DNA of 64,000 bases from Bolinopsis microptera (taxonomy: Eukaryota; Ctenophora; Tentaculata; Lobata; Bolinopsidae), in contig NC_087081.1 of the NCBI RefSeq assembly GCF_026151205.1, forward strand, positions 6,815,246 to 6,879,245. The letters are read 5' to 3'. Below the pieces are notes generated by a model that saw nothing but the letters and a program-made list of their open reading frames with translations, was not told the DNA's origin and searched no databases. The translations under genes were made by a program, and so were the position numbers. This document shows, piece after piece, positions 16,263-47,700 of the stretch; within the stretch, counting starts at the first letter, position 1, and each line of letters begins with the position of its first letter.

Positions 16263-16550
16263 CTCATTCAAGGTAAGGGGTTTAATATGGGTTTACCCCT
16301 TCCAGAGGTCTCATTCAAGGTAAGGGATTTAATATGGGTCTACCCCTTCCAGAGGTCTCATTCAAGGTAATGGGTTTAATATGGGTTTACCCCTTCCAGA
16401 GGTCTAATTCAAGGTAAGGGGTTTAATAAGGGTATACCCCTTCCAGAGGTCTCATTCAAGGTAAGGGGTTTAATAAGGGTTTACCCCTTCCAGAGGTCTC
16501 ATTCAAGGTAAGGGGTTTCAATAAGGGTTTACCCCTTCCAGAGGTCTCAT
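16251..16550. repeat. 47-bp tandem array at a splice acceptor, seven units
   Basis: Equivalent positions recur at 16262, 16309, 16356, 16403, 16450, 16497 and 16545. On the minus strand each unit has CCTTACCTTGAATGAG and then the exon start ACCTCTGGAAGGGGT; only the 16262 copy continues into the coding exon. On the plus strand the same unit looks like a micro-exon cassette: TTTACCCCTTCCAG, 14 nt, then GTAAGG. Confidence 0.85.
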
Positions 16551-16552
16551 AC

Positions 16553-16720
16553 AAAACCATCAATTAAACCACTTACCACCGGCCGATTTTTAACAACCTT
16601 AATTATTTGGCTTCGTCAGAGTTTTGTCGAAACTATACCGGAAGAACCTGTTTCATAACTCTTACTGTTTTCTTGATTAAACCGCTCGGAAATTACCCAC
16701 AGACAGACAGACACACGTCT
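16553..16720 (+). repeat. Interspersed repeat with ACAG tail, copy 2
   Basis: A diverged copy of the element at 11725, sharing ATCAATTAAACCACTTACCA, CGGAAATTAC and the CACAGACAGACAGACACAC tail. It abuts the outer edge of the 47-bp array. Confidence 0.65.
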
Positions 16721-17791: not shown

Positions 17792-20700
17792 GTTATCTCA
17801 TTTGTTTGGTTATCTGACAATTCCTTGTCTCCTGATTTATTTCTAATCACTGTTTAAACCAATAATTTCTCAAAAAGATTTGATTGCCAGCGCGCAACAG
17901 GGCATTCTTATTGCTATAAGTTAAAGATACTAAGATTATGAGCTGACTGTGATATTGTTCTATATTTCAGGTTTGATGTATCAAACTTACCATCTGAGAG
18001 TGAGATTAAGGGAGGAACACTAGATTTCAACCCAAAACTTGGGCCTCTGCTTTCAAAGTACGAGAATCTTAAAACAATTTCCCTTGAACTGCATGACCGG
18101 CACACACTGCAATGTGAGGGACTCCAGAGGACCAGTCCTGTCCAGGAGATAGCGGATGATATCTGCAAGGATTTACAGGATATGACATATGAAAATGAGA
18201 AGGTTGAAGCGAAGAGCAGTCCCCAGGAGGAGAACGATGTTGAAGTAAAGGTAAACACGGACAGTCCATATGAGGTTAAGGAAATATCGTTACAAGCTCT
18301 ACAAGAAGCCGGCATCAAGCTGATAAAAGTTGAGCCTGTGTACACCACAATCAGTGCTCTTCACCTAGGAGAACCCTCTCCGGAGACAACATACTCACCG
18401 GACACAACAGATTCTCTGGAGACAACAGATTCTCCGGATACAACATATTCTCCAGAGACAATAGACTCACTGGAGACAATAGATTCACCGTCAGATAGCG
18501 ATAGACCCTCAACTCCTACCACCACCCCACGTGTCACAGTCCCCATTGCCATGTCCTTTAATAGTGAGGACACTGATATGTTCGAAGGAAAGACAGTATC
18601 GTTCAGGGACACTACTGGTAAGGGCGAACTTCACTCAGTATTCTGCTATTCCGGGTCGGAGGAGTCCCTTGCTTTTGATGCTTCCACTGTTATAACGCTG
18701 CCGAGAGAAGTTGACGAGCTCTCTGATATTGAAATAGATTTACCTGACTCAGAGGTTAGGAATACTGGCTCAGAGAATATAAATCCTGTTTTGGTAATGA
18801 CTTCTGAAGATGTGATGCTGCAGCTGGAAAAGGATTTTGTGAACATTGGAGACACTATGGAGTTTCTATTAGACTCAGCTCCTAAATATAACGCTCTACC
18901 TAGAAGGATTCGTCAGGACTCTTTATCACAAACTAGAGAAGATATAGTATCACTTACTAGAACCTGTGAGATAACAGGTAGTGTCGAGATTCTTGGCAAT
19001 GTTTCAGAAGAAAAATCATCGGTTACAGCAGAAGATCTACTGGTTCAAGAGGAGAAATTAGGTGTTTTGAGTCATGAAATATCCGAGAAAAGATCGCCAG
19101 TAAATGTGTCGCCAGTCAAGGAATCTTCAGGTGAATCTTTGCTGGAATTTTCAGCTGCCGTAGATAGTGCTGCGATAAACTTTACAGAACTAGACTTACC
19201 CCTAATTGAAAAAGATACGTCAGAAAAAATATCCGATGCAATTGTAACCAAAGAAACTTGGCCGATCCATCCTGCTAGTGCAAATGTAAATCCTGCTGTT
19301 TCCAGAATAATTCACGATTCTTCTCATTCTGAATCTGATGGTTTTAACTTTGTGGAAGATAGTAGTCAACAAGATACTAAGTCAGAAATGGACGGTTTAG
19401 AAGAGGGGAAGGAAGATGGTCTATCAGAATCAGCAACTGATGTAAGTTTTCACTAAAAGCATCGTTATCAGCAATAACTTTAATTTATTTTCTCATTAAT
19501 ATGTGTCCTGGAAACATATCGACTGAAAGTTCTATTTGAAAGAAGTTGGTGCTTTTATGTTACTTTTATGAAATAGAGTTCAAGCTACGGCCGAGCGTTT
19601 AACAGAACGTTTGAGAGAATGGGCTCTTATAAATGTAAAACATCCATCATACATCATAGATTGATTTGTAAGAGATTGATTCTGTCTCATATTTTATTTG
19701 AAATACGTTTACCAGATATGTCCCTGGTTTTGAAACTTTGGCCGAATAAAATAAGTTTGGTATAAATATTTCTGTTCTGTAATTCACCTAAATGCATATT
19801 AAAATTATTCCTCGTATTGTCTGAACTCTAAACTTTAATTTCCATTTAAATATCTTAAGCAGAATTAGCTTGCCAACACTGAAATAAATCTTTATTACTA
19901 GAATATTCTTAACCGAAGATTGAAGCTGGATATGCCGGGTAAATTTTCATAGTCGGTATAAGATATTTGACTGAAAGTGAAAAACGATCCCCAGTTTGAC
20001 CTGGTACACCCTTGCGTTGAAATGATTACAGGAAGTTGACATCCAGATCCTTTCAACAAGTTGATCAACAGTAGACAGCTCCCCGGATGGTCGTGCGTTA
20101 TTTTATACACTGAGTCTGAACTGTCTGGTTAACCACAGACAATTGTGAAGGGAGTAGTGGAGTTGAGTTAATGGAGTTTACACCCCCGATGATCCTTGGG
20201 TGCTAGTTTAGTTTAAACACTATGTAGTCCAGTTTTAGTTTTATAAAGTGGTCGGTTTGCTATGTTTGATGGTTTGGTTTGCTCTGATCAGATAAGTCAA
20301 TCCCTTTAATTTTATTTCATTTTATATTTCATTTTTAAATAGATATTTTGTAAGTATACTACTTCTCACTAACTCAACGCCAGAAAACAAACTCGAAAAA
20401 ATCAGCTAAAATCAGTTGAACATGCCACTCCATGGGCATGACTAATTGCATTATTCAGATCACTTAGTGACAGTATAGCGTCTTCTTGACTACTCATATA
20501 GTACTCTGACCATTACTGGAGTGTCGGTGGAATCCAATAAACACGACACAATAAACAGTGCTTTTATTAAACATGGCAGGGTTTTAGCAGCAATATCTTG
20601 TCCAGCAAAGGTTGCCGCTTAACGTCGTGTAGTAACGTATCACCTGAAGTCAGCTTGTTCTTTGTTTCGCGCAGGGCCGTTTAGGTTTTACAGACTTAAT

Positions 20701-23700
20701 AGTTGTCGTCCACGTCACTTTTTACTGACAAGCAACCTAATAATAATAGCATGGCGAGTAGTCCGTGATAATAAACCTAATATAATATCTGAAACCTAAT
20801 ATAATAGCTTAGCCTTAAATAATAGCTTAATAGTCCGCGCGTTATTTTTGCACACGATGGTTGCTTCAGCACATTTTTTGATACGCCAGTACCATTCAGT
20901 TTGTAACGTCATAATGTTTTAGATGCTTGTAATTACATTCCACCGTAATGAGAATTACAATAGTGACTTTACTATAAACACAGTAGTAGCACATACCACC
21001 AAATGCCAAAGGCAAATAGGTACAAATACTATGTACAAGAGCTGACTGAGGCGGGTGAAAGGGGATGTTAGATGGTTGCTGAAAATTCCGTTAAAATGGC
21101 TGATAACCGACTAATAGCAACAGGCCTTTCCACCCATTTCGGTCAGCTCCTTGTTTTTAGGAAAATCTTAACAACTCTCTACCAGTGCTCTAAGTCTTAC
21201 AGTCGACTAAAAGTCGACGTTTACTCGTGTTTTAGCCGGCTAATAGCCATGAGTCGGCATTGTACCTATTTGTCCACCAAATACTTCTCCAAAATAAAGC
21301 TCGTTAAAACGTTTCAAATGACCTAATAGTTGCATCGTCCACGTCCTTTTTATTTAGGTTTAACTGACCTATAAGTGACCTTCAAGTTGTCCACGTTATT
21401 TTTACCCTACAGCGCCAGCCTATCTGTATCTTCTAATCTTTGACTTGTGTTGTAGAAAATGTTGTACTTGTAGATCCTTTTGTAGAACAATAATTAAGCC
21501 TGAGGTCCAAAGGTAAACGTCGATTTTTGGGGATGTGCGAATATCATTTAGTTTATAAGTTTAAATCTAATCAAATAACTCAAATTAGAATTTCAATGGA
21601 ACAAAAATTAGGAAATTAATAATAGAACTAAACTACAAATTTAATACACTCACGTTACACGATATCTACGTCATTATAAGTGCCCTTATACTTTACATGC
21701 CTTGAACTAACTATTACTAAAATTATGTTTAACCGACTCATATACTTATTATCCAACATTAATATCGAATATTGGCCTAATACCACTGGTTTGCATCACA
21801 ACCTAATGAGTAACGACCCTCTATATCCACTGGTACTTGTACAGGTCTCGGATGTGTGGCCTCGGAAGTGTGGCCTGTTTGTTGGGTATGAAGTTATACA
21901 CCATCCTTGTTATTTACTAATACTTTCTAATGGTGCGACATTTGCTCAATTTTAACTCGTTGTCAGCTTCATTTGGTGGAAACGTGGTTACTATTGTACT
22001 ACTTCTACTACTGTTTCTCGTCTACTAAATACCAGCTGAAGGTGGTAACAGCTATATTAGCTTGAGCCCCCCGGGGATGGAGTCGTTATAACTAATTTTA
22101 AATAAAAACAATTTATGCTTGTCCTACATTAGATGTCCGGCTCCTATGTTAATAAATACTAAGATGGTGAAGTATTCGGTGGTATGTGGTAACTACTACT
22201 ATTGTGTTTAGATATGAGCTATTTTATTAACTTGAGTAGCCCCGGGGGGTCGTGTCTGGTGTGGGTTCAGAGTTTTAAAAACCAACTCTACGTATAAAGT
22301 ATGAACATTGAACATCCTCTGATGGTCCGCGGGTTTTGTTTTATTAAATATCATAATGGAGAGGTTTTTAAGAGCTTGGCTGGAGCACCTGGTGCCTACC
22401 GAGTGCCTGGTCTCCGCTATGTTTAGCAGTTAGCACCAGTACTTACTTACTTGATTAGGTCTCCTCAATCATTTGAGTGGCCTGCACCAATGAACTCCCG
22501 TTTGTGACGTATCATCTCCCTCCACACTCCAGAGTTTGCGGTCACTAGCCATCCCACTCGCTCCTTCTAGGTCTATGTCAGTGTTTCCTGTAAGTGTTTC
22601 TAACCCGATCGAGCCATCTTATCCTAAGTATTCTCCTCAAGCAACGCTGATGGAACACCTCAAAGCGAAGTGTAATGTATGGTGTTCAGGGAGGTCTCAG
22701 AATCAATGGTAAAAATAATGAGGCTATGGTCATTGGTAAAGCAACCTCTCAACGGCCATACACGAAAGAAGCCACAGTGAACATCACTGTTGAAGACACG
22801 CCAGTGCAGCAAGTTAGTGACTTTACGTACTTAGGTACAATTATTTCCAGCGACCGTGAGCTGTCAGCGAGGATTCAAAAAGCTTCCGGAGCCTTCAATC
22901 AACTGAGTAATATATGGAAAAACCGCAACATCCAGTCTTATACAAAGATCAGGATTTATAAGGCAGCGGTTTTGACAATCACAGTGCTGGCAAGCACGAC
23001 CGGTGCATTTATTGTGGGTATACTATGTACCCCCTTTACTATTATACCCCTTTACTATTATACCCCCTTTGGTACACGTTACAAGCCTCTTTCGTGCACG
23101 CGAAGCGTGCACTCCGGCCGGAGGCGGCGGCCGAAGGCCGCCGCCTCCGGCAGGAGTTTTTCAGGCATTAAGACTCATCGGAAGTCGTTCAGCAGATTTA
23201 TTTTTAGTTCAAAACATTCTAATTTGATGTCAAAGATGACAGGAATAAAAAATAGTTATGTTGAGATTTTTAAGAAATTTGCATAAAATACTCGCCAGCA
23301 CTGTTATACGAAATTCGGTAAAAAACCCAAAATCGCCATATTCAGGTGCCTTAAAAACCATGTTAAAATCAAGTTAGAGATCTGAAATCTTTCAGGGCGT
23401 CTAGACGTTGACCAAATCGACTGCAAAAAAAGTTTCAGGTTTCAGGAACATCGGGAAGTGGGTTTTCTAGAACCCCTGTTTTACGACAGATTGTCGTGAT
23501 ATCTATCTATATATATACATATATATATATATATTCAGGGATAGACGCTTTGCCAGTCAATTGTAGCCTGTATTTAATTGTCCATAGATTCAAAAGTATA
23601 AAAGATACAGCCATTTCCGACCACAGGTCTTGAAAATAATTGTTTACACTTTAGTTTACATTGTATAAACAAATTATTTGAGGTCATGAACACCCCTTGA

Positions 23701-26700
23701 TGACGTCATCAAGTTAACCGTTTTTAAAACTTGATTTTTGACAAAGTAATAACTTTTAAAAATGATTTTACACCATTAAAAAGTAATTTTATTCAAAATC
23801 TGAGGAAATTTTCATCTTAGATAATTGTTCAAGCATTCTGAAAATCTACCGGAAAGTTTTTCTAGCTTGCTCCTTCATAAAGATATTCGTCATTGAAGTT
23901 TGTGCTTTTTTGAAGAATTATTTTATAAAAACGTCAATTTTGCGATTTAGTATTCTCTGGTGTTGGGCCATGCCTTGGGTTGTGGAGCTCAGTTCTGCTT
24001 CCTATAGATATAAATTGTGCATTAGGCTAGTTTTAAAGTTAAAAATCGGAAAGTTGCACACGTGGGGACACGCCCAAATTGATAGAAAATTGATAGAAAA
24101 TTGCTAAAATCACTGAAAATTGCTGTTTTCGTCATTTTCTGTCAACTTTAGAGTGCCGTTGTGATAACAGTTCTTCTTGAAATACTTTAAAACTTTGCAT
24201 GCTTATCAAGCTATATATACAACAATTACATGCAAAATTTTACGGCGATTCAATATTGGATGCGCACGCAACGTCCGCTCAAAGTTTGCACGTGCGAAAG
24301 GTGAGAATTTTGCTCATTTGTGATTTCCAACAAATTCTGCTTTGCCACGACAGTTTAATGTCATTATAAATGAATTTAATGCCAACTTGAATGAGTATTA
24401 AGTGGCATATTCAGTCAGTGATCGACCGATATGCTTACCTAAACACAAGGAAATGTTTTTAAAGGAAAAATTTCGAAATTGTTGAAACTTCCTCCTTATT
24501 AATGAAGATATCAGTTTATATTTCGACTTTATAAAGTACCCTGACATTATAATCAAAAAGAGATGATATTTGACCAAAACCCATAATCATGGGTAGAGTG
24601 GACCGCTGCCAGTGTCTCTCTTTCCCAAACAAAAGGAAATGATATTAATTTGATTGACCGTTCTCAAATGCAAAATGATACCGAGAATGAAATCGGTCGC
24701 TCGCTTTTCCCATTCATTTACAATTGTAATAGATTAAGAAGAACTACCCAAAGGCAGCTGTACTCAGCAATAAAGATTCAATAAACTTCAGCTAATTCAA
24801 TAAGTAATAACTACCACCCTTACCCCGAAATACTAGGTATCGACCCGAACGCAACCCAAAGAGATTTTTACAGCATCTGATTGATGTACCTAATCAATCG
24901 AAACTTATTACAATCCGTAAGCCGTGAATGAATGGGAAAAGCGAGCGACCGATTTCATTCTCGGTATCATTTTGCATTTGAGAACGGTCAATCAAATTAA
25001 TATCATTTCCTTTTGTTTGGGAAAGAGAGACACTGGCAGCGGTCCACTCTACCCATGATTATGGGTTTTGGTCAAATATTGTTATATGGTAGTGAGGTTT
25101 GGAACACAACCAGGCACCATGTAAATCTGTTGATGAAGTAGGAGTAGGAGAGATCGTTTGAAGCTACCGGCAATAGCGCAGACAGCTTCTACAAGCTTGT
25201 AAACAACAGCAATTGTTATTGAAAACCTTTGTTTGCACCTCGACTTCTTATCACGTTTTTGTAAAATATAGTGAGAAGGAGCTGCGGTTTCGTAGAATCT
25301 CTTGAAATGTTGCTTTTACTTTTACATTGAGTTTGATTTTATAAAACTTTAACCGCAACCGCTGACGTGTTTTTCGTTGCCAAAACGTCACTGTACACTG
25401 AGGTCAAACTGTGATAAAAGGATCATATATTCTATAATATATTCCTCTGATCTGATATTTAATAGGCTTGTTGCTACTAGTGAAACTCTTATGATCCGGA
25501 TTATATCATAGTTTTGTGGTTATCTTTTTAATTGCTTTTTACTGTCATCAGTCATATCCTTGCAGCCACGATTATAGTGGTCTCATGTTTGTTATGTATA
25601 AAAGATAGACAGTTGTCTGAATTTGAAGCCGTGCTAGTTTTGTATAGTGTTAGGTAATATTTTATAAGTAATAATAAAGAATTTATTCGTTCTTTATTGT
25701 GATATTTTTAATTATTTCTTGTTTTTTTATCCTTGCATAAGTAATATTTAAACAAAAATATTACTTATATATTTTTATATTTCTTATATTGTTCAGTGAT
25801 ATTTTTTAAATATTTTAACGTATATGAAGTTCTAGACAAAATTGTCTATAAAAGAATAATTAAGGCTGTTTAATTATAAACCAACCTTAATAAGAAACCT
25901 TATCAGTAATAGAGACCGCATCGCACTGCAGCGAATATCATAATAATATATCTTCTTAATGATTTCCTACTGCCTAATTCTCTGTTATTAAATACTTATC
26001 CAGCTTCATGTTTCTAATTAAAATCTTTCTTACAACCAATATAATGTTTCTTACAATTTGAATTAAATCTCAACGGACAAATAAGAATTGTAAAACTGTA
26101 TAATATGGAAGCTGAGGCTCTGTAGACGTAGTCCAGTTTGTACGCTGACAGTGTTCTCGACTTTTCCACTGCAGACAGACAGCAAATTTTCATGTCTGGA
26201 TTGCTTGCTTGCGTCCTGTTCCCGATAACTTTTCACAGCTAATATGGTCATGTTGTTATGGTAACATTACCATATAAGGAATCAGGGGAAGATTGTGGTA
26301 GAAAAGCTGGACTCAGATGATGATAAGTATGACGGTGCCAAACGTATCGCGTATTTCGCGATAAACTTTTTCCGAATATTTTAGATATTTTCAACAATCA
26401 GTGCGAGGGTACTGCGCATTGTCACAATGCGCATTTGTCACACAATGATTGTGTGACAAATAATAAATTTCCAACACGTTCAAACACTTTACTATATACT
26501 TTAAAAACACGTACCTACATTACAAACACGTACAGAATGCAGCACTGAGGAGTTAATGGACCGTGATATTACAACAACTCCAGTTATAACACCAGTTATA
26601 AATATAACACTAATCAGAAGTGTGTTCTGGAAGGTTTATCGCCTGAAGACTCACTTCACCCAAATGTCGACACCTGGAACTGTTCTCGAACTGTTCTGCC

Positions 26701-29700
26701 GCGGATCTTATTGCGACCGCCAGAATTGTCGGCCAATGAAATGCCAGCAAACAGAATTGTCGGCCAATGAAATGCCAGCAATCAGGCCATGTGGTGGGTT
26801 TAATCACAGAGAGTTTTAACGTTTGGCGCTATAATAGTCGGCTGTTTTGGTCCCACTATGCAGCCTGCAGGACCCTCTTAGTCAATCTTAAGATTTTGTA
26901 TTTTAAAGTTTTAATACATTTTTAAAAGATGAGTTAGCACAGTTGAACAAACTGATTTGGTTCCAGTAGGATATGGTTCACTCTAACCATTGGTTAAGTG
27001 GAATCCGAATGTTCAATTCATGAACTTGTTAAAGTTTGATATAATAGTCACGACAGGTAGTTCTTTCAGAAGTTTTTCTAAACATATTTTCACGATAACT
27101 ATAAGGCCATTGACCGGACCAGCATCAATCTTGTATTGTCGTTACGTAAATGGATTCCGCGGTGGAAGTTAGGTGTTTATGTCAATTTCCATAACAGTCA
27201 AAAGAAAACATTGTACCGGAGCCGTGCGGTCTGATTAGTAAAATTATTTAAAAGACCCAATCCAAGAAATAAAATAAACTTGGGAACTTCGATCACAAGT
27301 GTGGACGATTAGATTTTAAAAAAGCAATTTTTCTATCTTCGCCACCTCAGCCACCGTAAACGTCCCCGAAACAATTTACTTTAGCTGGTTGTGCATGATT
27401 TGTGTAAACGTTGTTCATTCGTAAACAAAATTGTGATCTGCATTTGTTTGTAATCTAGCAAAATTAGTCAGTTACACATTAATGCTTTGTTCTTAAGTCT
27501 CATTTTCAAGGAAAAGATTCGATATAAATTTTTACCATTTCCTGTTTTAGTTTACAACCTTTATAAATATAATTTAACAAAATTAAATCACCAACCCAGA
27601 ACTCTATCGACCACAAAAAGCCAATCCACGTAATCAAAAGCAGTTGGCACTATTTCAGCCATTAGTCAACACTATGAAGTGCAATTCTTGCCAGGATAAG
27701 CACAGTTAATTTCCTCCTCTGCTTTCTAACTAGGACAGTATAGGACTACTTGTACGGCTCTAGGGAATAGGTGGCCTAGTGGTTAGAGCATCCGCCTTCT
27801 GCGCAGAAGGTTCAGGGTTCGAATCCCAGTGTCACCTAGTCTAGGGAGTAGCTAAGGATCCATTGGATCTATGCGATCTCCTCGGTCGACTCAGCCGAAT
27901 GATAGGAAACTTAATTGAGGGTTAAATGAGGTGGGGTACCCGTGACCTGTTAAAAGTTCAAGAAACTTCCTAGGATACCCCTTCAGTGCATACTGTAAAC
28001 ATAGTGCTATTAACTATTAACTATTAACTATTGTTCAACGGGCGGGCCAGACCCTTTTATGACCAGACATAGCTTTATTTTATAGAGTGGAAATCCTTGG
28101 GTGGAGCTATCAAAGGATTCGCTCTGCGGGGCCCGGTCAGAAGTCCTTCAGCTCGGTTTAGAGTTTTAGGCCAGAGACCGGTGACTACATTAAAAGAAAA
28201 TAAGGAGAACTAGACAAATGTATCTTCTCTCCAGATTGGGATGTTTATTTTTTGACCCGGCTTGCTTTGAGCTAAGGTTTCTCGACTATAGTTTTATAGT
28301 TTAAAAAAGATAAAATTACAGAGAATCTCGTCAACTTTTCATTCTAAGTTTTAACAGAGTCCACAGATTCAATAGCAGTGGTCCTAAATTCTCACTGAGA
28401 GATGCACGTTCATTATTTTATGATTAGTGTATTGCAACTGTTGCTTGAACAGTGTTTACTTGCTTGATTACAGCCATTTTAATTTTTTGATAAATTGCTG
28501 CTGTTTAATTTATATGCTCTTTGTGTTAGGTCTGACAGCAAATAGCCCCGCTAGTGCCTCTTTTTGTGACTCAACTATAAGTTTTCTCATCTTGATTAAA
28601 CTTATCCACCCTCCCGTGTAGCAAATTTAAACACAAGGATATAAGTTTCCTTACCTTTCTCAAACCAATGTACCCTCCCTGTTTAGCATGTTCAAACAAA
28701 TGGATAAATTTCCTTGATCAAACTAATCCACCCTCCCCGTCTAGCTGATCAAACTAATCCACCCTCCCTGTCTAGCTGATCAAACTAATCCACCCTCCCC
28801 GTCTAGCTGATCAAACTAATCCACCCTCCCCGTATAGCTGATCAAACTAATCCACCCTCCCCGTATAGCTGCTCAAACTAATCCACCCTTCCCGTCTAGC
28901 TGATCAAACTAATCCACCCTCCCCGTCTAGCTGATAAAACTAATCCACCCTCCCCGTGTAGCTGATCAAACTAATCCACCCTCCCCGTCTAGCTGATCAA
29001 ACTAATCCACCCTCCCCGTCTAGCTGATCAAACTAATCCACCCTCCCCGTATAGCTGATCAAACTAATCCACCCTCCCCGTCTAGCTGATCAAACTAATC
29101 CACCCTCCCCGTCTAGCTGATCAAACTAATCCACCCTCCCCGTCTAGCTGATCAAACTAATCCACCCTCCCCGTCTAGCTGATAAAACAAATCCACCCTC
29201 CCCGTGTAGCTGATCAAACTAATCCACCCTCCCCGTGTAGCTGATCAAACTAATCCACCCTCCCCGTCTAGCTGATCAAACTAATCCACCCTCCCCGTCT
29301 AGCTGATCAAACTAATCCACCCTCCCCGTCTAGCTGATAAAACTAATCCACCCTCCCCGTCTAGCTGATCAAACTAATCCACCCTCCCCGTGTAGCTGAT
29401 CAAACTAATCCACCCTCCCCGTGTAGCTGATCAAACTAATCCACCCTCCCCGTCTAGCTGATCAAACTAATCCACCCTCCCCGTCTAGCTGCTCAAACTA
29501 ATCCACCCTCCCCGTCTAGCTGATCAAACTAATCCACCCTCCCCGTATAGCTGATCAAACTAATCCACCCTCCCCGTCTAGCTGATCAAACTAATCCACC
29601 CTCCCCGTGTAGCTGATCAAACTAATCCACCCTCCCCGTCTAGCTGATCAAACTAATCCACCCTCCCCGTGTAGCTGATCAAACTAATCCACCCTCCCCG

Positions 29701-32700
29701 TGTAGCTGATAAAACTAATCCACCCTCCCCGTGTAGCTGATCAAACTAATCCACCCTCCCCGTCTAGCTGATCAAACTAATCCACCCTCCCCGTCTAGCT
29801 GATCAAACTAATCCACCCTCCCCGTGTAGCTGATCAAACTAATCCACCCTCCCCGTCTAGCTGATCAAACTAATCCACCCTCCCCGTCTAGCTGATCAAA
29901 CTAACCCACCCTCCCCGTCTAGCTGATCAAACTAATCCACCCTCCCCGTCTAGCTGATCAAACTAATCCACCCTCCCCGTCTAGCTGATCAAACTAATCC
30001 ACCCTCCCCGTCTAGCTGATCAAACTAATCCACCCTCCCCGTCTAGCTGATCAAACTAATCCACCCTCCCCGTGTAGCTGATCAAACTAATCCACCCTCC
30101 CCGTGTAGCTGATCAAACTAATCCACCCTCCCCGTCTAGCTGATCAAACTAATCCACCCTCCCCGTCTAGCTGATCAAACTAATCCACCCTCCCCGTCTA
30201 GCTGATCAAACTAATCCACCCTCCCCGTCTAGCTGATCAAACTAATCCACCCTCCCCGTCTAGCTGATCAAACTAATCCACCCTCCCCGTCTAGCTGATC
30301 AAACTAATCCACCCTCCCCGTCTAGCTGATCAAACTAATCCACCCTCCCCGTCTAGCTGATCAAACTAATCCACCCTCCCCGTCTAGCTGATCAAACTAA
30401 TCCACCCTCCCCGTCTAGCTGATCAAACTAATCCACCCTCCCCGTCTAGCTGATCAAACTAATCCACCCTCCCCGTCTAGCTGATCAAACTAATCCACCC
30501 TCCCCGTGTAGCTGATCAAACTAATCCACCCTCCCCGTCTAGCTGATCAAACTAATCCACCCTCCCCGTCTAGCTGATCAAACTAATCCACCCTCCCCGT
30601 GTAGCTGATCAAACTAATCCACCCTCCCCGTCTAGCTGATCAAACTAATCCACCCTCCCCGTCTAGCTGATCAAACTAATCCACCCTCCCCGTCTAGCTG
30701 ATCAAACTAATCCACCCTCCCCGTCTAGCTGATCAAACTAATCCACCCTCCCCGTCTAGCTGATCAAACTAATCCACCCTCCCCGTCTAGCTGATCAAAC
30801 TAATCCACCCTCCCCGTCTAGCTGATCAAACTAATCCACCCTCCCCGTCTAGCTGATCAAACTAATCCACCCTCCCCGTCTAGCTGATCAAACTAATCCA
30901 CCCTCCCCGTCTAGCTGATCAAACTAATCCACCCTCCCCGTCTAGCTGATCAAACTAATCCACCCTCCCCGTCTAGCTGATCAAACTAATCCACCCTCCC
31001 CGTCTAGCTGATCAAACTAATCCACCCTCCCCGTCTAGCTGATCAAACTAATCCACCCTCCCCGTCTAGCTGATCAAACTAATCCACCCTCCCCGTCTAG
31101 CTGATCAAACTAATCCACCCTCCCCGTCTAGCTGATCAAACTAATCCACCCTCCCCGTCTAGCTGATCAAACTAATCCACCCTCCCCGTCTAGCTGATCA
31201 AACTAATCCACCCTCCCCGTCTAGCTGATCAAACTAATCCACCCTCCCCGTCTAGCTGATCAAACTAATCCACCCTCCCCGTCTAGCTGATCAAACTAAT
31301 CCACCCTCCCCGTCTAGCTGATCAAACTAATCCACCCTCCCCGTCTAGCTGATCAAACTAATCCACCCTCCCCGTCTAGCTGATCAAACTAATCCACCCT
31401 CCCCGTCTAGCTGATCAAACTAATCCACCCTCCCCGTCTAGCTGATCAAACTAATCCACCCTCCCCGTCTAGCTGATCAAACTAATCCACCCTCCCCGTC
31501 TAGCTGATCAAACTAATCCACCCTCCCCGTATAGCTGATCAAACTAATCCACCCTCCCCGTCTAGCTGATCAAACTAATCCACCCTCCCCGTCTAGCTGA
31601 TCAAACTAATCCACCCTCCCCGTCTAGCTGATCAAACTAATCCACCCTCCCCGTCTAGCTGATCAAACTAATCCACCCTCCCCGTCTAGCTGATCAAACT
31701 AATCCACCCTCCCCGTCTAGCTGATCAAACTAATCCACCCTCCCCGTCTAGCTGATCAAACTAATCCACCCTCCCCGTCTAGCTGATCAAACTAATCCAC
31801 CCTCCCCGTCTAGCTGATCAAACTAATCCACCCTCCCCGTCTAGCTGATCAAACTAATCCACCCTCCCCGTCTAGCTGATCAAACTAATCCACCCTCCCC
31901 GTCTAGCTGATCAAACTAATCCACCCTCCCCGTCTAGCTGATCAAACTAATCCACCCTCCCCGTCTAGCTGATCAAACTAATCCACCCTCCCCGTCTAGC
32001 TGATCAAACTAATCCACCCTCCCCGTCTAGCTGATCAAACTAATCCACCCTCCCCGTCTAGCTGATCAAACTAATCCACCCTCCCCGTCTAGCTGATCAA
32101 ACTAATCCACCCTCCCCGTCTAGCTGATCAAACTAATCCACCCTCCCCGTCTAGCTGATCAAACTAATCCACCCTCCCCGTCTAGCTGATCAAACTAATC
32201 CACCCTCCCCGTCTAGCTGATCAAACTAATCCACCCTCCCCGTCTAGCTGATCAAACTAATCCACCCTCCCCGTCTAGCTGATCAAACTAATCCACCCTC
32301 CCCGTCTAGCTGATCAAACTAATCCACCCTCCCCGTCTAGCTGATCAAACTAATCCACCCTCCCCGTCTAGCTGATCAAACTAATCCACCCTCCCCGTCT
32401 AGCTGATCAAACTAATCCACCCTCCCCGTCTAGCTGATCAAACTAATCCACCCTCCCCGTCTAGCTGATCAAACTAATCCACCCTCCCCGTCTAGCTGAT
32501 CAAACTAATCCACCCTCCCCGTCTAGCTGATCAAACTAATCCACCCTCCCCGTCTAGCTGATCAAACTAATCCACCCTCCCCGTGTAGCTGATCAAACTA
32601 ATCCACCCTCCCCGTCTAGCTGATCAAACTAATCCACCCTCCCCGTCTAGCTGATCAAACTAATCCACCCTCCCCGTCTAGCTGATCAAACTAATCCACC

Positions 32701-35700
32701 CTCCCCGTCTAGCTGATCAAACTAATCCACCCTCCCCGTCTAGCTGATCAAACTAATCCACCCTCCCCGTCTAGCTGATCAAACTAATCCACCCTCCCCG
32801 TGTAGCTGATCAAACTAATCCACCCTCCCCGTCTAGCTGATCAAACTAATCCACCCTCCCCGTCTAGCTGATCAAACTAATCCACCCTCCCCGTGCTAGC
32901 TGATCAAACTAATCCACCCTCCCCGTCTAGCTGATCAAACTAATCCACCCTCCCCGTGTAGCTGATCAAACTAATCCACCCTCCCCGTCTAGCTGATCAA
33001 ACTAATCCACCCTCCCCGTCTAGCTGATCAAACTAATCCACCCTCCCCGTCTAGCTGATCAAACTAATCCACCCTCCCCGTCTAGCTGATCAAACTAATC
33101 CACCCTCCCCGTCTAGCTGATCAAACTAATCCACCCTCCCCGTCTAGCTGATCAAACTAATCCACCCTCCCCGTGTAGCTGATCAAACTAATCCACCCTC
33201 CCCGTCTAGCTGATCAAACTAATCCACCCTCCCCGTGTAGCTGATCAAACTAATCCACCCTCCCCGTGTAGCTGATCAAACTAATCCACCCTCCCCGTTA
33301 GCTGATCAAACTAATCCACCCTCCCCGTGTAGCTGATCAAACTAATCCACCCTCCCCGTCTAGCTGATCAAACTAATCCACCCTCCCCGTCTAGCTGATC
33401 AAACTAATCCACCCTCCCCGTTAGCTGATCAAACTAATCCACCCTCCCCGTGTAGCTGATCAAACTAATCCACCCTCCCCGTCTAGCTGATCAAACTAAT
33501 CCACCCTCCCCGTCTAGCTGATCAAACTAATCCACCCTCCCCGTCTAGCTGATCAAACTAATCCACCCTCCCCGTCTAGCTGATCAAACTAATCCACCCT
33601 CCCCGTGTAGCTGATCAAACTAATCCACCCTCCCCGTGTAGCTGATCAAACTAATCCACCCTCCCCGTTAGCTGATCAAACTAATCCACCCTCCCCGTCT
33701 AGCTGATCAAACTAATCCACCCTCCCCGTCTAGCTGATCAAACTAATCCACCCTCCCCGTCTAGCTGATCAAACTAATCCACCCTCCCCGTCTAGCTGAT
33801 CAAACTAATCCACCCTCCCCGTCTAGCTGATCAAACTAATCCACCCTCCCCGTCTAGCTGATCAAACTAATCCACCCTCCCCGTCTAGCTGATCAAACTA
33901 ATCCACCCTCCCCGTCTAGCTGATCAAACTAATCCACCCTCCCCGTCTAGCTGATCAAACTAATCCACCCTCCCCGTGTAGCTGATCAAACTAATCCACC
34001 CTCCCCGTCTAGCTGATCAAACTAATCCACCCTCCCCGTCTAGCTGATCAAACTAATCCACCCTCCCCGTCTAGCTGATCAAACTAATCCACCCTCCCCG
34101 TCTAGCTGATCAAACTAATCCACCCTCCCCGTGTAGCTGATCAAACTAATCCACCCTCCCCGTATAGCTGCTCAAACTAATCCACCCTCCCCGTCTAGCT
34201 GATCAAACTAACCCACCCTCCCCGTCTAGCTGATCAAACTAATCCACCCTCCCCGTATAGCTGATTAAACTAATCCACCCTCCCCGTGTAGCTGATCAAA
34301 CTAATCCACCCTCCCCGTGTAGCTGATCAAACTAATCCACCCTCCCCGTCTAGCTGATCAAACTAATCCACCCTCCCCGTCTAGCTGATCAAACTAATCC
34401 ACCCTCCCCGTCTAGCTGATCAAACTAATCCACCCTCCCCGTGTAGCTGATCAAACTAATCCACCCTCCCCGTGTAGCTGATCAAACTAATCCACCCTCC
34501 CCGTCTAGCTGATCAAACTAATCCACCCTCCCCGTCTAGCTGATCAAACTAATCCACCCTCCCCGTCTAGCTGATCAAACTAATCCACCCTCCCCGTCTA
34601 GCTGATCAAACTAATCCACCCTCCCCGTCTAGCTGATCAAACTAATCCACCCTCCCCGTCTAGCTGCTCAAACTAATCCACCCTCCCCGTCTAACTGATC
34701 AAACTAATCCACCCTCCCCGTCTAGCTGATCAAACTAATCCACCCTCCCCGTGTAGCTGATCAAACTAATCCCACCCTCCCCGTATAGCTGCTCAAACTA
34801 ATCCACCCTCCCCGTCTAGCTGATCAAACTAACCCACCCTCCCCGTCTAGCTGATCAAACTAATCCACCCTCCCCGTCTAACTGATTAAACTAATCCACC
34901 CTCCCCGTGTAGCTGATCAAACTAATCCACCCTCCCCGTCTAGCTGATCAAACTAATCCACCCTCCCCGTCTAGCTGATCAAACTAATCCACCCTCCCCG
35001 TGTAGCTGATCAAACTAATCCACCCTCCCCGTCTAGCTGATCAAACTAATCCACCCTCCCCGTCTAGCTGATCAAACTAATCCACCCTCCCCGTCTAGCT
35101 GATCAAACTAATCCACCCTCCCCGTCTAGCTGATCAAACTAATCCACCCTCCCCGTGTAGCTGATCAAACTAATCCACCCTCCCCGTCTAGCTGATCAAA
35201 CTAATCCACCCTCCCCGTCTAGCTGCTCAAACTAATCCACCCTCCCCGTGTAGCTGATCAAACTAATCCACCCTCCCCGTGTAGCTGATCAAACTAATCC
35301 ACCCTCCCCGTCTAGCTGATCAAACTAATCCACCCTCCCCGTCTAGCTGATCAAACTAATCCACCCTCCCCGTGTAGCTGATCAAACTAATCCACCCTCC
35401 CCGTCTAGCTGATCAAACTAATCCACCCTCCCCGTGTAGCTGATCAAACTAATCCACCCTCCCCGTCTAGCTGATCAAACTAATCCACCCTCCCCGTCTA
35501 GCTGATCAAACTAATCCACCCTCCCCGTGTAGCTGATCAAACTAATCCACCCTCCCCGTCTAGCTGATAAAACTAATCCACCCTCCCCGTCTAGCTGATA
35601 AAACTAATCCACCCTCCCCGTGTAGCTGATCAAACTAATCCACCCTCCCCGTCTAGCTGATCAAACTAATCCACCCTCCCCGTCTAGCTGATCAAACTAA

Positions 35701-38700
35701 TCCACCCTCCCCGTCTAGCTGATCAAACTAATCCACCCTCCCCGTCTAGCTGATCAAACTAATCCACCCTCCCCGTCTAGCTGATAAAACTAATCCACCC
35801 TCCCCGTATAGCTGATCAAACTAATCCACCCTCCCCGTCTAGCTGATCAAACTAATCCACCCTCCCCGTCTAGCTGATCAAACTAATCCACCCTCCCCGT
35901 CTAGCTGGCAGGAGATGAGAAAGGGAAACTGCTAGTTATCCTCCTGGGGCAGCGACTAGATACAGTCAGTAAGGAGGAGGCAGGGGAGGCCGGGGACTCC
36001 TTCGCCACTGCTGACAACCGGTCAGTACTCTTACTTTATTGACACAAGTTTTGTTTCATTAAAAACAATTTTTGTTCAAACACAGGGAAGAGTTATAAAC
36101 GAAAAATACTTCTTAGTCTGCTCCAAACAGTTTGGCGCAAATGTAGACGGGTGAATATAGATCTCGATAGGATCTATCACGTGGTCTCTCACAAATTTAG
36201 AAGCAGCTCAAGAAGTGACGACTTTTCTCCCGTGCATCGGGTATACTCTCAAACAAAACTGCCACGCAATAATGCGTGACGGAACAACGCATCTGCTTGT
36301 CCCACGTGACTAGCAGTCTCGCCAAATGAACACTCCGCTAGTCAGTCACCCTGCAGTCGCAAGAATCAACCACAGGCCACTCGGCCAGTTAAGTGCAAAC
36401 ATGAGCGGACAGCTCTTATCTGATAATAGATAAGCTCGCTTAAACCGATATTTACAACAAACGCGTGTAAATAGAGATAAGCTAAATCAAACTTTACCCG
36501 CGGAAATCCTTATCATTAAATTTAACTAGCCTAATTCCAAATACTAATAATAATTTCTAGATTAAATGAAATAAGAAAACGTACCTGACTAATACAAGAT
36601 GCGCTGAATAACAAATTTAAACTTGGAGAAATCTGCTGATTCTCCCTGTCAACACAATCAGAGTCATACCAAGGCGGCTGAAACTCACAAAATAAAATTA
36701 AAGCAATTATTAAGTTATTGTTCACACAATTAGTCAATTGTTCTAGCTCCATTGTCAATTCATACGTGAAGTATATACTGAAGTAGTGAGGCGCTTTAAA
36801 AGCGCCGCTTTTTATTATTCGATGAGATACGCTGAACTGTTGCCACGGTGTCATGTCTGAAAAATTGTAAAGGTCTTGCACTTGTCAGAGTTTATATTCT
36901 TGTAATCTTGTCACTCCACAACTATGCGGACTTTTTTAATATTTGGTTTGATCATTATGATGTCAAACAGTTAAATTTATTCGGATTTTGGATTTCCTAC
37001 TTTATAGGTTTTTTGAATTATTTTATTACCATCCAAATGAATTAAAACTAAAGTTTACCATGCCATTCAAAATCTAACTTTTCTTCAACTATAATACATT
37101 CATTATTTTTGGTTCCCAATGAAAATTTTGGATTTATAGATTCTATCGCGATCCCTCTCATAATAATGAAAAATACTAATATCTCTGACTTTCAAGATAA
37201 TCCTTGAAACAGTCAAAAACGGCACTCTACCACCACAAATTTAATGTAAGATTATAATGTATGATTATAATGTATATAATGTATGATAATATAGTGAATA
37301 GTAATAAGTAAGTAAGTGATATAGTTGATGTTAACCGGACCTAAGCTATCCCTTGTCTCATGTGTCACAAGGCTGCTGGTAGCTGTATCATGAACATATT
37401 GTATGACTATGATAATAAAATATTTATGACTATGATAATTCAATAATAAAGACTAATCACTCATAGTGATGATATGTTTATTTCTTAAGTAATTTCACCA
37501 AAGTTACAAAAGCGTTAAGCGCTAGACCGTAATCTATTGTTTCAATCGTATTTTATATATCGACTGTAATTGATAATTTGTTAGAGTCGACAAATTCCTT
37601 AAAAGCTTAATGAACTCACAATTGCGATAATTTATATAATCATCCGCGTGCATAAATTACATAATTAACATCCGTTATACCATAGTACCGGAGACATAGT
37701 CAGAACCAACCGACGATTTGTCTGCCCCTAATAATTCTGATCATTGTTTCATAATTTATAATAATTATAATAATCAGCACTACGGACCTGCTGCTGATTC
37801 TTTTTCTTTTATATATAAGAGAAAAAAATCAGCAGCAGGTTATATATAGCTCCAATTGATCGTATATTACAGACGAGTGAAGATGTTAACGTTTTTGTTT
37901 GCCAATATATTGGCAAACTGCGTACATGTGTTAACTTTTGTTTCTTCATTACAGTTCATTTGTATCTATGTTAGTAGTTAGACACATCCAATATTAGTAT
38001 TATTTGTAATGTTGACGTGCAATAGGTACTGCTATATTCTATACTATACTTTTTGGTATTTGTGCTACATTATGTTTCCTCTAATTCTATTTTAGATATT
38101 TTTAATGTGTGGTAAAAACGGAGGTGTTAAGGTGCTCACCTTGACTAATTGTTACTTAATTTCTGTTAAATTCCTGTTTAAGTTCATGTTATTCGCAATA
38201 CTACATATTTTTTCCATCCGCCATTTTTGTGAAGCAAAAAAAGTAAAGGATCGGATGGTTACAAATGGTAAAATTGTGAAAAAAGAGGAATTTTCAAGAT
38301 CAGGGTAGGTGGGTTTAAATATGTCTTCATTCCTTCCTTCCATCCGTCAAAATTCGTCGTAGCAATGTCTAAACTTTACAAAATTACAAATTTTCGGTAA
38401 CTAAGCAGTCATCAACGACTAAAAATGTTAGTATATTTTGGCTTTAGTATTACAATATATAACACTATCATAGTTGAATCGATTATTTTGATTAAATGAC
38501 ATGGAACATAAAAAACTAGTCCCAGTCTAGTGTGGTTGTATTAAAATGGATCACGTCATGATTTCATGAATTAGTGACAATTAATCTCATTAGAAGCAAG
38601 GTGGCGTTTACAGGTAGCATATTCGCGAGGTGTTTCAAAATCCGGTTCATGAATTATGACAGTCGTTTATCTTATATATTATATATTATCTTATTTGTTA

Positions 38701-41700: not shown

Positions 41701-44700
41701 CTGTTGATTCGTCATAACTTCTTGTAGCGACGATCATGATATCAACTTATTGTGGGCTAACTTCTCCCAAGCAAAAGTTTCGATTTGTTTGAACCGACAA
41801 TTTGCTATACTTAACCCGTACCTAGTGCTTTGGTACAAGCGCTATAGTGTGTATGTATTGTTATTACGTAGTGCATTGTAAGATATCCAGTATCTACAGT
41901 ATTATAAACGCATAATCCTAATAATGAGATGGTAGGTAAGCACTAAGCGTACTACGCAGTATAACTGCAGTTGAAGATTAGACAGATAAAGCATTTTAAA
42001 CAATGACAAAACCAGTCTTAATGAGTTATGACGGAAACTCATTTCTCTACAGGCCAAATCATTTGTTCTCTTATTATTATTTGCAAAACACTTGATTTCG
42101 AATTTATCACCACCAGAGACTATATAGCTGAGTAAACATATAGAGTTATTCAGATTGAATTATAGGATTTTATTCACCAATTTGCAAACTAATTTAGTAG
42201 ATGAGTTTAGAGTTTAGACATTAGAAAGAAAAAATGCACGGAATCTGCGTTATACTAGTCAATATCTCTTCCGTATTATAGAAGCTAAAATATTTGTTAA
42301 TTATTTCAAAGGTAAATCGATTAGGATGTGCCACAAATTTAGCGTTAAGCTTGCAGGTTACTCTGTGAAGTTACAAAATATATATTTTAGGCCCAATAAA
42401 CATTACTGGGCCTCGCTCAGCCTGTCATTCCGCCGAATCTCTATGTTAATGAACATGATAGCCTGAGGTCCCCAGGTAAAATAAACAATGCCACTAATCT
42501 AAGTTCAGTCCAAATGCTCGTTACCTGGTTACCTGGTTACCTGGTTACCTGGTTACCTGGTTACCTGGTTACCTGGTTACCTGGTTACCTGGTTACCTGG
42601 TTACCTTATCTCTATGTTAATGAACATGATAGCCTGAGGTCCCCAGGTAAAATAAACAATGCCACTAATCTAAGTTCAGTCCAAATGCTGGTTACCTGGT
42701 TACCTGGTTACCTGGTTACCTGGTTACCTGGTTACCTGGTTACCTGGTTACCTGGTTACCTGGTTACCTGGTTACCTGGTTACCTGGTTACCTGGTTACC
42801 TGGTTACCTGGTTACCTGGTTACCTGGTTACCTGGTTACCTGGTTACCTGGTTACCTGGTTACCTGGTTACCTGGTTACCTGGTTACCTTATCTCTATGT
42901 TAATGAACATGATAGCCTGAGGTCCCCAGGTAAAATAAACAATGCCACTAATCTAAGTTCAGTCCAAATGCTGGTTACCTGGTTACCTGGTTACCTGGTT
43001 ACCTGGTTACCTGGTTACCTGGTTACCTGGTTACCTGGTTACCTGGTTACCTGGTTACCTGGTTACCTGGTTACCTTATCTCTATGTTAATGAACATGAT
43101 AGCCTGAGGTCCCCAGGTAAAATAAACAATGCCACTAATCTAAGTTCAGTCCAAATGCTGGTTACCTGGTTACCTGGTTACCTGGTTACCTGGTTACCTG
43201 GTTACCTGGCTACCTGGTTACCTGGTTACCTGGTTACCTGGTTACCTGGTTACCTTATCTCTATGTCAATGAACATGATAGCCTGAGGTCCCCAGGTAAA
43301 ATAAACAATGCCACTAATCTAAGTTCAGTCCAAATGCTGGTTACCTGGTTACCTGGTTACCTGGTTACCTGGTTACCTGGTTACCTGGTTACCTGGTTAC
43401 CTGGTTACCTGGTTACCTTATCTCTATGTTAATGAACATGATAGCCTGAGGTCCCCAGGTAAAATAAACAATGCCACTAATATAAGTTCAGTCCAAATGC
43501 TGGTTACCTGGTTACCTGGTTACCTGGTTACCTGGTTACCTGGTTACCTGGTTACCTGGTTACCTGGTTACCTGGTTACCTGGTTACCTGGTTACCTGGT
43601 TACCTTATCTCTATGTTAATGAACATGATAGCCTGAGGTCCCCAGGTAAAATAAACAATGCCACTAATATAAGTTCAGTCCAAATGCTGGTTACCTGGTT
43701 ACCTGGTTACCTGGTTACCTGGTTACCTGGTTACCTGGTTACCTGGTTACCTGGTTACCTGGTTACCTGGTTACCTGGTTACCTGGTTACCTGGTTACCT
43801 GGTTACCTGGTTACCTTATCTCTATGTTAATGAACATGATAGCCTGAGGTCCCCAGGTAAAATAAACAATGCCACTAATCTAAGTTCAGTCCGAATGATC
43901 GAGGTATTTTATCCAGCATTAGTAATAGTGCTGTAAATTACATATCAATTTTCTCTGAATCTCACAACATTCCAGTCTCGAATAAACCTGATTTATGGGT
44001 ATTTTTCAACCAAAAACTTTTACTAAGCACATTAAATTCCTTCCGTTTTTGTTAAGTTAAGAGATTTCCTACTGTTATACCCTAGTTCAGTGTTCACCCT
44101 CATTTACATGAGACTGAAATGTTCTTGTTTACTAGATTTCTTGTTAGGTGCTGCATGAACTGATCAAGGTTCCGTGTTTGTTTTGATACCGTTCCAGGAA
44201 ATTTCCTAATTTGAACTCTTATCCGGTCTAGCGGAGCATCGTCTCACTTATTATCATTTATATTGTTGGCCCCTCTATATACCTGTATATACTTGATCCT
44301 TACTGGGCCGCGCTCAGCCTGTCATTCCGCCGAATCTCTAATCTCTATGTTTATGAACATGATAGCCTGAGGTCCCCAGGTAAACTTGATCCCTGTTGAT
44401 CCCTACTTCAAGTCCAACAAATTTTATACATGACACAGTTGTGAGTTGTAGAATGTAGATATTACTATATTAATTTACACTTAAGCTTCAGTTCTTTTTG
44501 TTAAGCTCTACTCAACAGCTGTTCTTTGCTCCATACTCCAGTAAACTTTATAATTTTCGTAGTTATTTTACTTCACTGAAAATTGTTTTGCTGTTACTGT
44601 TAATCTGGCCAGTAATGAACAATATGAGATGTGTAGTAGAAGGTTTTTAGAAACAGAATAAATCCGAGTCCAAACGTTTCATATTCAATATTCATATATA

Positions 44701-47700
44701 GTTACCTCAGCTTCTGAACACCGTAAATACATTTGGGTAGTCTAAAATGGCCACATGGTAACCCAATTTTGCTAACCTTTAGGCACTTTCAGGTTGAATT
44801 TTTAAGTTGCATGGTATATAATTATATAATATTGCCTTATACAAGATTGCTGAGTTTGTTGTCAATTCAACATGTATAAATCTAAAATTACCCTCATCGA
44901 AAGTTTTATAATTACACTGGGGCTAGTTGAGCTAGTCATGAGCATAATTGAGGTAGAGTATTCAATATTATAACTTTATAACATAAAATGTGTATAAGCT
45001 CAAATTTCTGCAGACAATAATATTATCTAACCATAACTATAACTAAAATACATATAATCGTGACTAAAGTGAATATCACTCTGTTGAGGGATTATGATCC
45101 TGCTTGACGAGTTATTCATATGCCATGCCCTCTTTTGTCTTTGTATCAAATGTTAACAATATAAAAAGTCACTACATTATCAAATTAACATCCGATAGCA
45201 AAAATAATAAACTTTCTGGGAATATTTTTGAAAAGAAAATTTTAACTCCCACCACAAAACTTTCTTAGCAGACCTTGAGAAAATAACCAGGTCTGAGTCG
45301 TGTTTCCATCACTAAAAAACTTAAGCTGTCTTCCAAGATCAAATAAAACCACACAATCTCAAACTCTAATCCCAATACTAAATCCACGACTCTCCTTCTT
45401 ATGACGTCATCAAGTTATTCAGTTATACACATAATATGTAAGACTAAGCACCTTCGTTAACAAAAGCATTTTTGATTCAAAAGGAATAATTGCAATGAAT
45501 TCAGAATTTGTAGGTTCACAAAAACATTTTTAAGGTTACAATTACAAAGCCTCAATCCTCATATGGAGCTGCTAATTCTACCTTTTACGGCGCGCACACT
45601 AACTGAATCAGCTGACCGGCATTGATTATTAATGTAAATGTAAATGTTGTTAATGTTGTTAATGTTGTTAATGTTGTTAATGTAAATGTTAACGTAAATG
45701 TTGTTAATAATGGCCTTTCTATTCGATTGGTTGCTTTAGCTAATCTTTCGATCACTTAATTGTTCTCATAATAAATCAAACGTAATTGATCGAACTTTTC
45801 ATCCCTTTACTATGAAATGCAGTCAATATGCATAAATGGCCGAACTATGTAGGATATATCATATTCTAAAATATTTATATTTCATGTATATTTTCCGTTT
45901 TAATTTATATGTTTGTGAATTATATTAATTATTTTAATATAAACCTATCTATATCCTTTTCTGCTAACCACTGTTGCCCTAGATCACTGCAACTTCATGC
46001 GCTTTGAAATTTGTTTTTAGTTACTTGTCTGCGTTTTGAAACGAATAATTTGTTTGAACCTTGATTCCGACCACATATTGTACTCTATAATATTGGTGTA
46101 GTGACGATTTCTAATCTATAATCAATAATCATTTATATAATCTTTGCCATTGTACTAGTAGGACCAAGATTTGCTGTTTCTCATCAGATGACCGAACATT
46201 CTCCACATGTTCTCGGGACAACAAGAACAGCCATTTCCTTAGCCACCTTCAATGTGTCGAAACCAGACAATCTATTCCGTCAGAAAAGCGAACCATTACC
46301 TGCACTACCAGGGAGCCGGGATTATGATAATTTCAGTAGAGCTGATTCAGAAATTACCCGTCCACCACGGCAGCGGAGTCGAACCTCAAACTCAGAATCA
46401 GACCCCAGAAAGAAAGCTAGTTTGGGTTGGAGTTCCTTTGTTCTGGATAAGCTCATGACAGCTGGCGAATATTTGTCAGATACTGGGAGACAGGATCAGA
46501 ATATCTTCAGTCAGGGTAGGAACTTTATACTGAGCTGGAGGAACAGAAGTGATAGACGGAGGACAAGGTATTCTTATTTCCACTACTTTCACGTAGGTTT
46601 GATCATTGCTTCAAACTGTGCACATGCAGCAGCAATTCTATTTTATCTTTTGATACAAGTAGCAACTCAAGTATTTCCTCAAACAGTAGTGGAATCTCAG
46701 ATAAACCAGAACGGGAGAGACGAGGGAGTCTCTGTCCCGTTTTCAACGACCCAAGGGCCATGGAAATGGTGGCTAAAGCTGCACTAGCGAAAAAGTGAGT
46801 ATCGTACCTTATTGTAAAGTTTTAATACCTTAAAAGTTTTTGTTCGCTGCACTCAAAAATATGGAAAAAGTAAAGTTTCTTTAGCTTGTATTAAGATCAA
46901 TCGTTATGCCTAATAATATTAGTAATATTATTAATATTAATGATACTAGTGATTTAGTGGCCTGTAATCGGATGGTTGCAGGTTATTCCTACATTGTACC
47001 TTGGTTGACCCCAGTAATCCATTGGGTCTATGCATGCTTTTCAGTACAAGTTAGAACGAAGTCTTCATGTTATGAAGCCAGGGGTTGGACTGGCTTTTAC
47101 TAATATTTCCATCACGATACATATAATAAATGTAATAGATTTGTAGTGTTGTCATTGGGTCTATACTAATACAGTTCCAATGGTCCACTCAGCTAAAAAA
47201 CGGAAAACCTTGATTCAGGGTTAACTTACTCCCCACACTGTTCTTGGGAGGCCTCGAACAAAAACAGAACTTTAACCGTCCCTGGCTTTATTTATTATCA
47301 TTATTTTAATTTAGTAGTTGCTCACCGAGGTAAAATGAAAATAATAATATGATATCGGAGCCCGGGCCTCGTTTTCAAACTTCCTGAGTAACAAAATTAG
47401 GGTTACGTGATTCTGGCTATTTTCTGAAAATGCGGAGTCTTGGAACTCTTTAGGTGCTCACTCAAATTATTTTATAGATTGTTAAAACTTGAATTTGGAT
47501 AGCTACCGGATGCAATTTCCAGGATCAATAACCTGAAAAAGCTTGTAAATCAAATATGAGTGGCTACTTCTTGGAATTGCTTGATTTCACGACATAATCT
47601 TAAAATGATTGATATATGAATTGTGATTAATTCGCCCTTTGAACTATTGAACCCCTTTGAATAACATCCACTGATTGATAATCAAAGGGTTTTTGGTTCA

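Follow-up and report, generated by a model that had tools for sequence, protein, structure and literature searches.

A single-locus array of 232 acceptor-like units adjoining a predicted coding exon in the ctenophore Bolinopsis microptera

What is a 7-kb tandem repeat, nearly every unit of which looks like the 3' end of an intron, doing immediately in front of a predicted coding exon? The question is raised by a 64-kb stretch of the Bolinopsis microptera genome (assembly GCF_026151205.1, contig NC_087081.1, positions 6,815,246 to 6,879,245, forward strand), hereafter the window, in which the array, exons and donors were analysed and to which all coordinates below refer. A 31-bp array occupies positions 28715-35907 of the plus strand and runs up to the predicted exon at 35905-36020. 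Its best explanation, to which we give a probability of about 0.62, is a very large, acceptor-side form of the duplicated intron-exon boundaries known from amphioxus as mirages, in which the last unit serves as the working acceptor and the other units are mostly tolerated and silent under exon definition.

Tandem Repeats Finder (TRF) reports a single array with a period of 31, 232.1 copies and 98% matches. Cutting it gives 232 units, of which 227 are 31 nt long, three are 30 nt and two are 32 nt; 167 are identical in sequence. Across the whole array (about 7.2 kb) the TAG is kept in 230 units, also 230 when read as TAGC, the branch-point-like CTAAT in 228 and the C-rich pyrimidine tract CCACCCTCCCC in 230. 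Of the 229 units with both elements, 224 place the branch-like A 18 nt ahead of the G of the TAG, and the three elements stand at normal spacing. The first-pass annotation of this DNA had described about 232 units of 31 bp that each carried CTAAT some 18 nt before the AG, a tract and a TAG, and both the count and the anatomy of the unit are confirmed, the latter in 224-230 units depending on the element. It had placed the array at 28714-35911; the repeat itself is found at 28715-35907, and the right end has to be moved, position 35911 being 4 nt beyond the array and the G of a CAG discussed below. The true end, 35907, is 3 nt past the last TAG (35902-35904). Since the CTG after that TAG still matches the unit, whereas the match breaks off beyond it, the array reaches 3 nt into the proposed exon, and the edges of array and predicted exon thus coincide to 3 nt.

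The unit is confined to this locus. An exact 22-nt unit core has 217 forward and no reverse matches in the genome of 264,652,675 bases, and 217 matches within the window, so that the count here accounts for all of them. A 31-bp satellite spread widely away from splice sites, which the first-pass annotation had named as the observation that would count against its view, was looked for genome-wide and was not encountered. The 461-base left end of the array gave 114 matches, all of them on C10 and inside the array or its flank (one scored candidate place), and a diverged unit from the left flank had no second match in the genome at up to 3 mismatches. A dispersed satellite or a transposon as the origin of the array was rejected, there being no copies elsewhere in the genome.

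The array also carries marks of its history. Diverged 40-nt copies at 28576, 28640, 28698 and 28729, spaced by 64, 58 and 31 nt and 60–75% identical to the first, precede and enter its left end, and the plus-strand segment 28576-28714 reads as an older, decayed part of the repeat. Within the array, the numbers of units that depart from the majority sequence in successive blocks of 29 are 14, 8, 1, 1, 5, 10, 17 and 9; the two central-left blocks have one each, five of the six others have 8–17 and one has 5. A uniform centre with varied edges is what unequal exchange would give. No higher-order period was detected in the array, the best lag, with 11 matches, only equalling the 95% point of shuffled arrays and none beating the shuffles. 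Growth by duplication from a real 3' splice site is the likely origin.

Is there an exon for such a splice site to serve? Segment 35905-36020 (116 nt, plus strand) is probably a coding exon in the frame proposed by the first-pass annotation, entered in phase 0 and with two bases over at its end. Under a codon model whose training set comprised 4795 codons, taken from the CCT genes of this genome and the G-protein-coupled receptor (GPCR) frame of the window, positions 35905-36018 score 20.6. In a background of 4542 stop-free windows of 38 codons (out of 56,660 examined; the windows overlap and are correlated) no window reaches this value, and the maximum is 8.6; windows drawn from the training exons, without holding these out, have a mean of 17.6 (sd 5.1, n=100). 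Read in its two remaining frames, this DNA scores -10.7 and -12.9, so that the coding signal is specific to the frame and not a product of base composition alone. Elsewhere from 19.5 to 57 kb, on either strand and with the arrays masked, nothing scores above 12.0. The exon is followed by a GTCAGT donor (36021-36026, plus strand) at the 98.7th percentile of background GTs. Its frame contains no ATG, and entry by splicing would therefore be needed. A longer coding exon extending across 36088-36276, together with a donor at 35969, was also considered and rejected, the frame scoring -22.4 (728 of 980 background windows as good) and the donor at 35969 reaching only the 55th percentile.

The candidate partner lies far upstream. 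A predicted coding exon at 17971-19441 (plus strand) has 490 open codons within a 504-codon open frame, is preceded by an acceptor, TTTCAG|G, that scores 4.3 on a matrix made for this genome, and ends in phase 0 at a GTAAGT donor (19442-19447, plus strand; context GAT|GTAAGT), also at the 98.7th percentile of background GTs. The phase match between this donor and the exon at 35905, pointed out in the first-pass annotation, holds. Between 19442 and 28500 there is no convincing exon, the best plus-strand segments scoring 11.4 and below. A tRNA family match (32.1 bits; 27770-27837, plus strand) lies inside the predicted 16.5-kb intron, 0.9 kb to the left of the array, and could be a tRNA-derived repeat.

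Reading phase separates the units sharply. When each of the 230 array TAGs is joined to 19441, the last leaves the exon open, two (those one and two units upstream of it) lead to a stop in the exon, and 227 meet a stop within the array, 215 of these in the third unit. Phase thus favours the last TAG (35902-35904, plus strand), the only one in the array that leaves the exon open and the most likely working acceptor. The earlier expectation that use of an upstream unit would shift the frame and soon reach a stop, leaving only the last unit correct, was borne out for all 229 other TAGs.

These observations suggest the following course of events. The 3' end of an intron, with branch point, pyrimidine tract, AG and 3 nt of exon, would have undergone tandem duplication and, in at least two ages, amplification through slippage or unequal exchange, the middle of the array becoming homogenised while selection on the exon held the right edge in place. 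The last unit would now act as the acceptor of exon 35905-36020 in a phase 0 splice from 19441 across the 16.5-kb intron. Under exon definition, only units separated from the donor at 36021 by no more than the length of a normal exon should matter, and this donor would be paired with its nearest acceptor; because the exon would be recognised in this way, the other units would be mostly silent. At most the last few may leak, yielding a ladder of exons of 116+31k nt with premature stops, and these products would presumably decay.

Among known systems, tandem acceptors of the NAGNAG type consist of two or three AGs a few nucleotides apart that share one branch point. They have in common with the Bolinopsis array that neighbouring acceptors differ in their consequences for the reading frame, but here whole units of branch point, tract and AG are repeated. 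Introners, which are dispersed repeats carrying both splice sites, also combine repetition with splice signals; in contrast, the Bolinopsis unit carries an acceptor only and sits at one locus, all 217 exact cores lying in the array with no diverged copy elsewhere. A closer parallel is the variable number tandem repeat (VNTR) in intron 18 of human ABCA7, which in the portion of the source available has 25-bp units in about 12 to 427 copies, the first GT being the donor of the exon, with a one-unit out-of-frame isoform and a link between repeat length and skipping of exon 19 (PMC5954066). Both repeats have a short unit that abuts an exon and can carry a splice site in every copy, and retention of one unit shifts the frame, but the ABCA7 unit supplies a donor on the 5' side of the intron (PMC5954066, same portion). 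The Bolinopsis array adjoins the acceptor side of the predicted exon, and its unit ends in TAG.

The closest match is with the mirages of amphioxus, minisatellite-like duplications of intron-exon boundaries that, as far as the available text of the report goes, are spliced regularly (PMC3087553); the same is stated for Adh and TnC in the part available of a second report (PMC3902484). The cases named in these texts are Adh3, the globins BflGb6 and BflGb9, TnC and PGBD5 repeats (PMC3087553, PMC3902484). As described there, they would share with the Bolinopsis array the tandem duplication of a boundary including its splice signals, edges that lie outside homogenisation, and potential cryptic sites. 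Here, copies of the splice signals stand in nearly all units, weak though they are on the genome's matrix, and concerted evolution inside goes with divergent edges, seen in the block counts and the decayed left copies. The repeat may also span a boundary, its last 3 nt overlapping the start of an exon that is predicted from codon statistics and donor. The differences are of scale and content, BflGb6 having 3–6 units in the available text against 232 units here, and the Bolinopsis unit being almost pure intron end plus 3 nt of exon. Among the matches listed in open-licence literature on tandem repeats or minisatellites with splice acceptors, and likewise on ctenophore minisatellites, no acceptor array of this sort was found. 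Most likely the array belongs to the known mirage type at a much larger scale.

A second structure of this kind occurs on the minus strand of the same window, at 10726-11005, where three copies of an intron 3' end are each joined to 29 nt of coding sequence. The corresponding exon starts are 10962, 10890 and 10801. Reading from the innermost continues into an open exon of 76 nt whose GT donor lies at the 95th percentile, and the outer two run into stops. Judged by its sequence, this is a textbook mirage-like arrangement. A third repeat, at 16240-16554 (plus strand; 6.7 copies of a 47-bp unit), has an acceptor-like site, CCCCTTCCAG, in all seven copies, each at or above the 97.5th percentile, and 14 nt later a GTAA donor-like site in six copies, five of them at the 99.9th percentile, so that 14-nt 'mini-exons' are enclosed.

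How often repeats border exons in this genome was gauged in control genes, with 81 usable exons (those inside the fetched DNA) of 108 listed, 35 from CCT and 73 from myosin genes. Counting all arrays, there was no bias between sides: 10 of 81 exons had one within 150 nt on the acceptor side versus 8 on the donor side, with 7 versus 6 within 60 nt and 15 versus 16 of 80 within 300 nt. Large arrays, defined as at least 5 copies and 100 nt, lay within 150 nt of the acceptor in three of the 81 exons and of the donor in none (Fisher P = 0.12, not significant). Two of these three end close to the acceptor, and random placement gives at least two with P = 0.078, so that a tie of large arrays to acceptors in control genes is suggestive only. 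One array of 61 x 30 bp (G000:C13:6710848-6712675) is rich in CTAAC and pyrimidines, lacks AG and ends about 20 nt before a CCT acceptor; another, of 141 x 8 bp (G000:C3:11064150-11065259), stops 13 nt short of a probable minus-strand myosin acceptor.

Several findings weigh against our interpretation, the lack of significance in these control genes among them. The TAG of the unit scores only -0.9 on the acceptor matrix, at the 87th percentile of 1125 background AGs and with 1 of 18 true sites lower (leave-one-out), on a matrix that was itself built from just 18 introns inferred in CCT genes, one low-confidence intron of 19 having been dropped. The upstream exon has a low codon score of 0.04 per codon. 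A further exon downstream of 36020 was looked for and not found, and the acceptor nearest downstream of the exon, at 36085, scores -2.6 and would terminate the protein four codons on. No Pfam family or paralogue was found for either exon: the long upstream exon had no Pfam family at E 0.001 and two peptides derived from the exons none at E 10, and a PDB search for the identity of the gene returned one weak match (E 0.028). The purine-rich, enhancer-like content of exon 35905-36020 is above average but within the ordinary range, being equalled or exceeded in 12 of 110 training windows.

The weak score of the unit leads to the alternative that comes next, namely that the acceptor is the CAG at 35909-35911, outside the repeat, or that splicing into the exon starts from some other exon, in which case the array would provide only branch point and tract and its TAGs would be bystanders. 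Because the unit is weak and the genome prefers CAG, used in 16 of the 18 inferred introns (TAG in 2), this CAG could be the true site. The control CCT gene with 61 x 30 bp of repeat and no AG ahead of its acceptor is an example of what the array would then be. The CAG itself scores -1.6 (84th percentile, plus strand), and the matrix scores are unable to decide between it and the last TAG. Against it, a splice from 19441 to this CAG runs into a stop seven codons on, the last TAG precedes it and agrees with the phase 0 donor, and the empty interval 19442-28500 offers no other exon from which to enter. We regard this alternative as doubtful, though deserving of serious attention. A YTRAY motif with its A 14–30 nt before the exon occurs in 11 of the 18 inferred introns, as in the 31-bp unit.

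A regulatory function is unlikely. It would have some 230 working acceptors compete, with copy number or elongation rate setting the yield of productive mRNA, as a timer or rheostat. Every intact unit does have acceptor elements, all but the last lead to stops, and the donor-duplicating ABCA7 repeat alters splicing with its length in the text available (PMC5954066). However, the unit is weak as an acceptor on the genome's matrix, the amphioxus genes with duplicated acceptors are reported, in the portions available, to be spliced regularly (PMC3087553, PMC3902484), and in a long intron most units would be beyond the reach of exon definition from the donor at 36021. If such competition did operate, acceptors would capture the transcript before the last one was made, the productive share would fall with copy number and rise with elongation speed, and alleles of different length would set the output of the gene.

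Very improbable, in our estimation, is that the exon is unreal and the array an ordinary intronic or intergenic minisatellite whose likeness to an acceptor is fortuitous. Minisatellites are plentiful in this genome (11 large arrays without overlap in 112,962 sampled bases), random placement puts some of them near exons (a mean of 0.465 adjacent to an acceptor), and the exon yielded neither homologue nor domain. Its codon score, more than any background window attains and specific to one frame, its strong donor and the agreement of the two edges to 3 nt all speak against this. Scarcely credible is a role of the array elsewhere, either as a cluster of transcription factor sites, for which there is motif resemblance only (TAATCC in the unit resembles K50 homeodomain sites, and CCACCC those of KLF proteins), or as a series of acceptors for the trans-splicing of a spliced leader: a search for leader motifs gave 3 matches versus 2 in the control, no better, and a trans-spliced product would not start at exon 35905, its frame having no ATG. 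Trans-splicing is common in ctenophores according to the text available of PMC8527503, which is the point in favour of the latter.

Other features of the window stand apart from the array. Positions 42520-43816 hold a nested array of GTTACCTG 8-mers within a 187-bp higher-order repeat, and 50666-52716 a 2-kb, pyrimidine-only-like array of TCTTCTCCTCCC in which several frames are open. On the minus strand, an open frame of 1104 codons (58020-61331) carries a rhodopsin-family GPCR domain and an LDL-receptor class A domain. Two adjacent plus-strand open frames at 46189-46794 are partly coding-like, the first from an ATG at 46189 and the second running to a GTGAGT donor. A coding-like minus-strand segment at 3956-4078 had no Pfam match for so short a piece, and we take it to resemble the start of a Na,K-ATPase alpha subunit.

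The locus amounts to a natural experiment in spliceosomal choice, with over 200 almost identical acceptors on offer. If only the last unit is used, this would argue strongly, in vivo, that in a long intron exon definition prevails over proximity to the donor, and a ladder of products, if found, would measure the reach and the leak of exon definition in steps of 31 nt. The array also suggests that minisatellites which duplicate exon boundaries, reported from lancelets, have arisen in a further lineage of animals.

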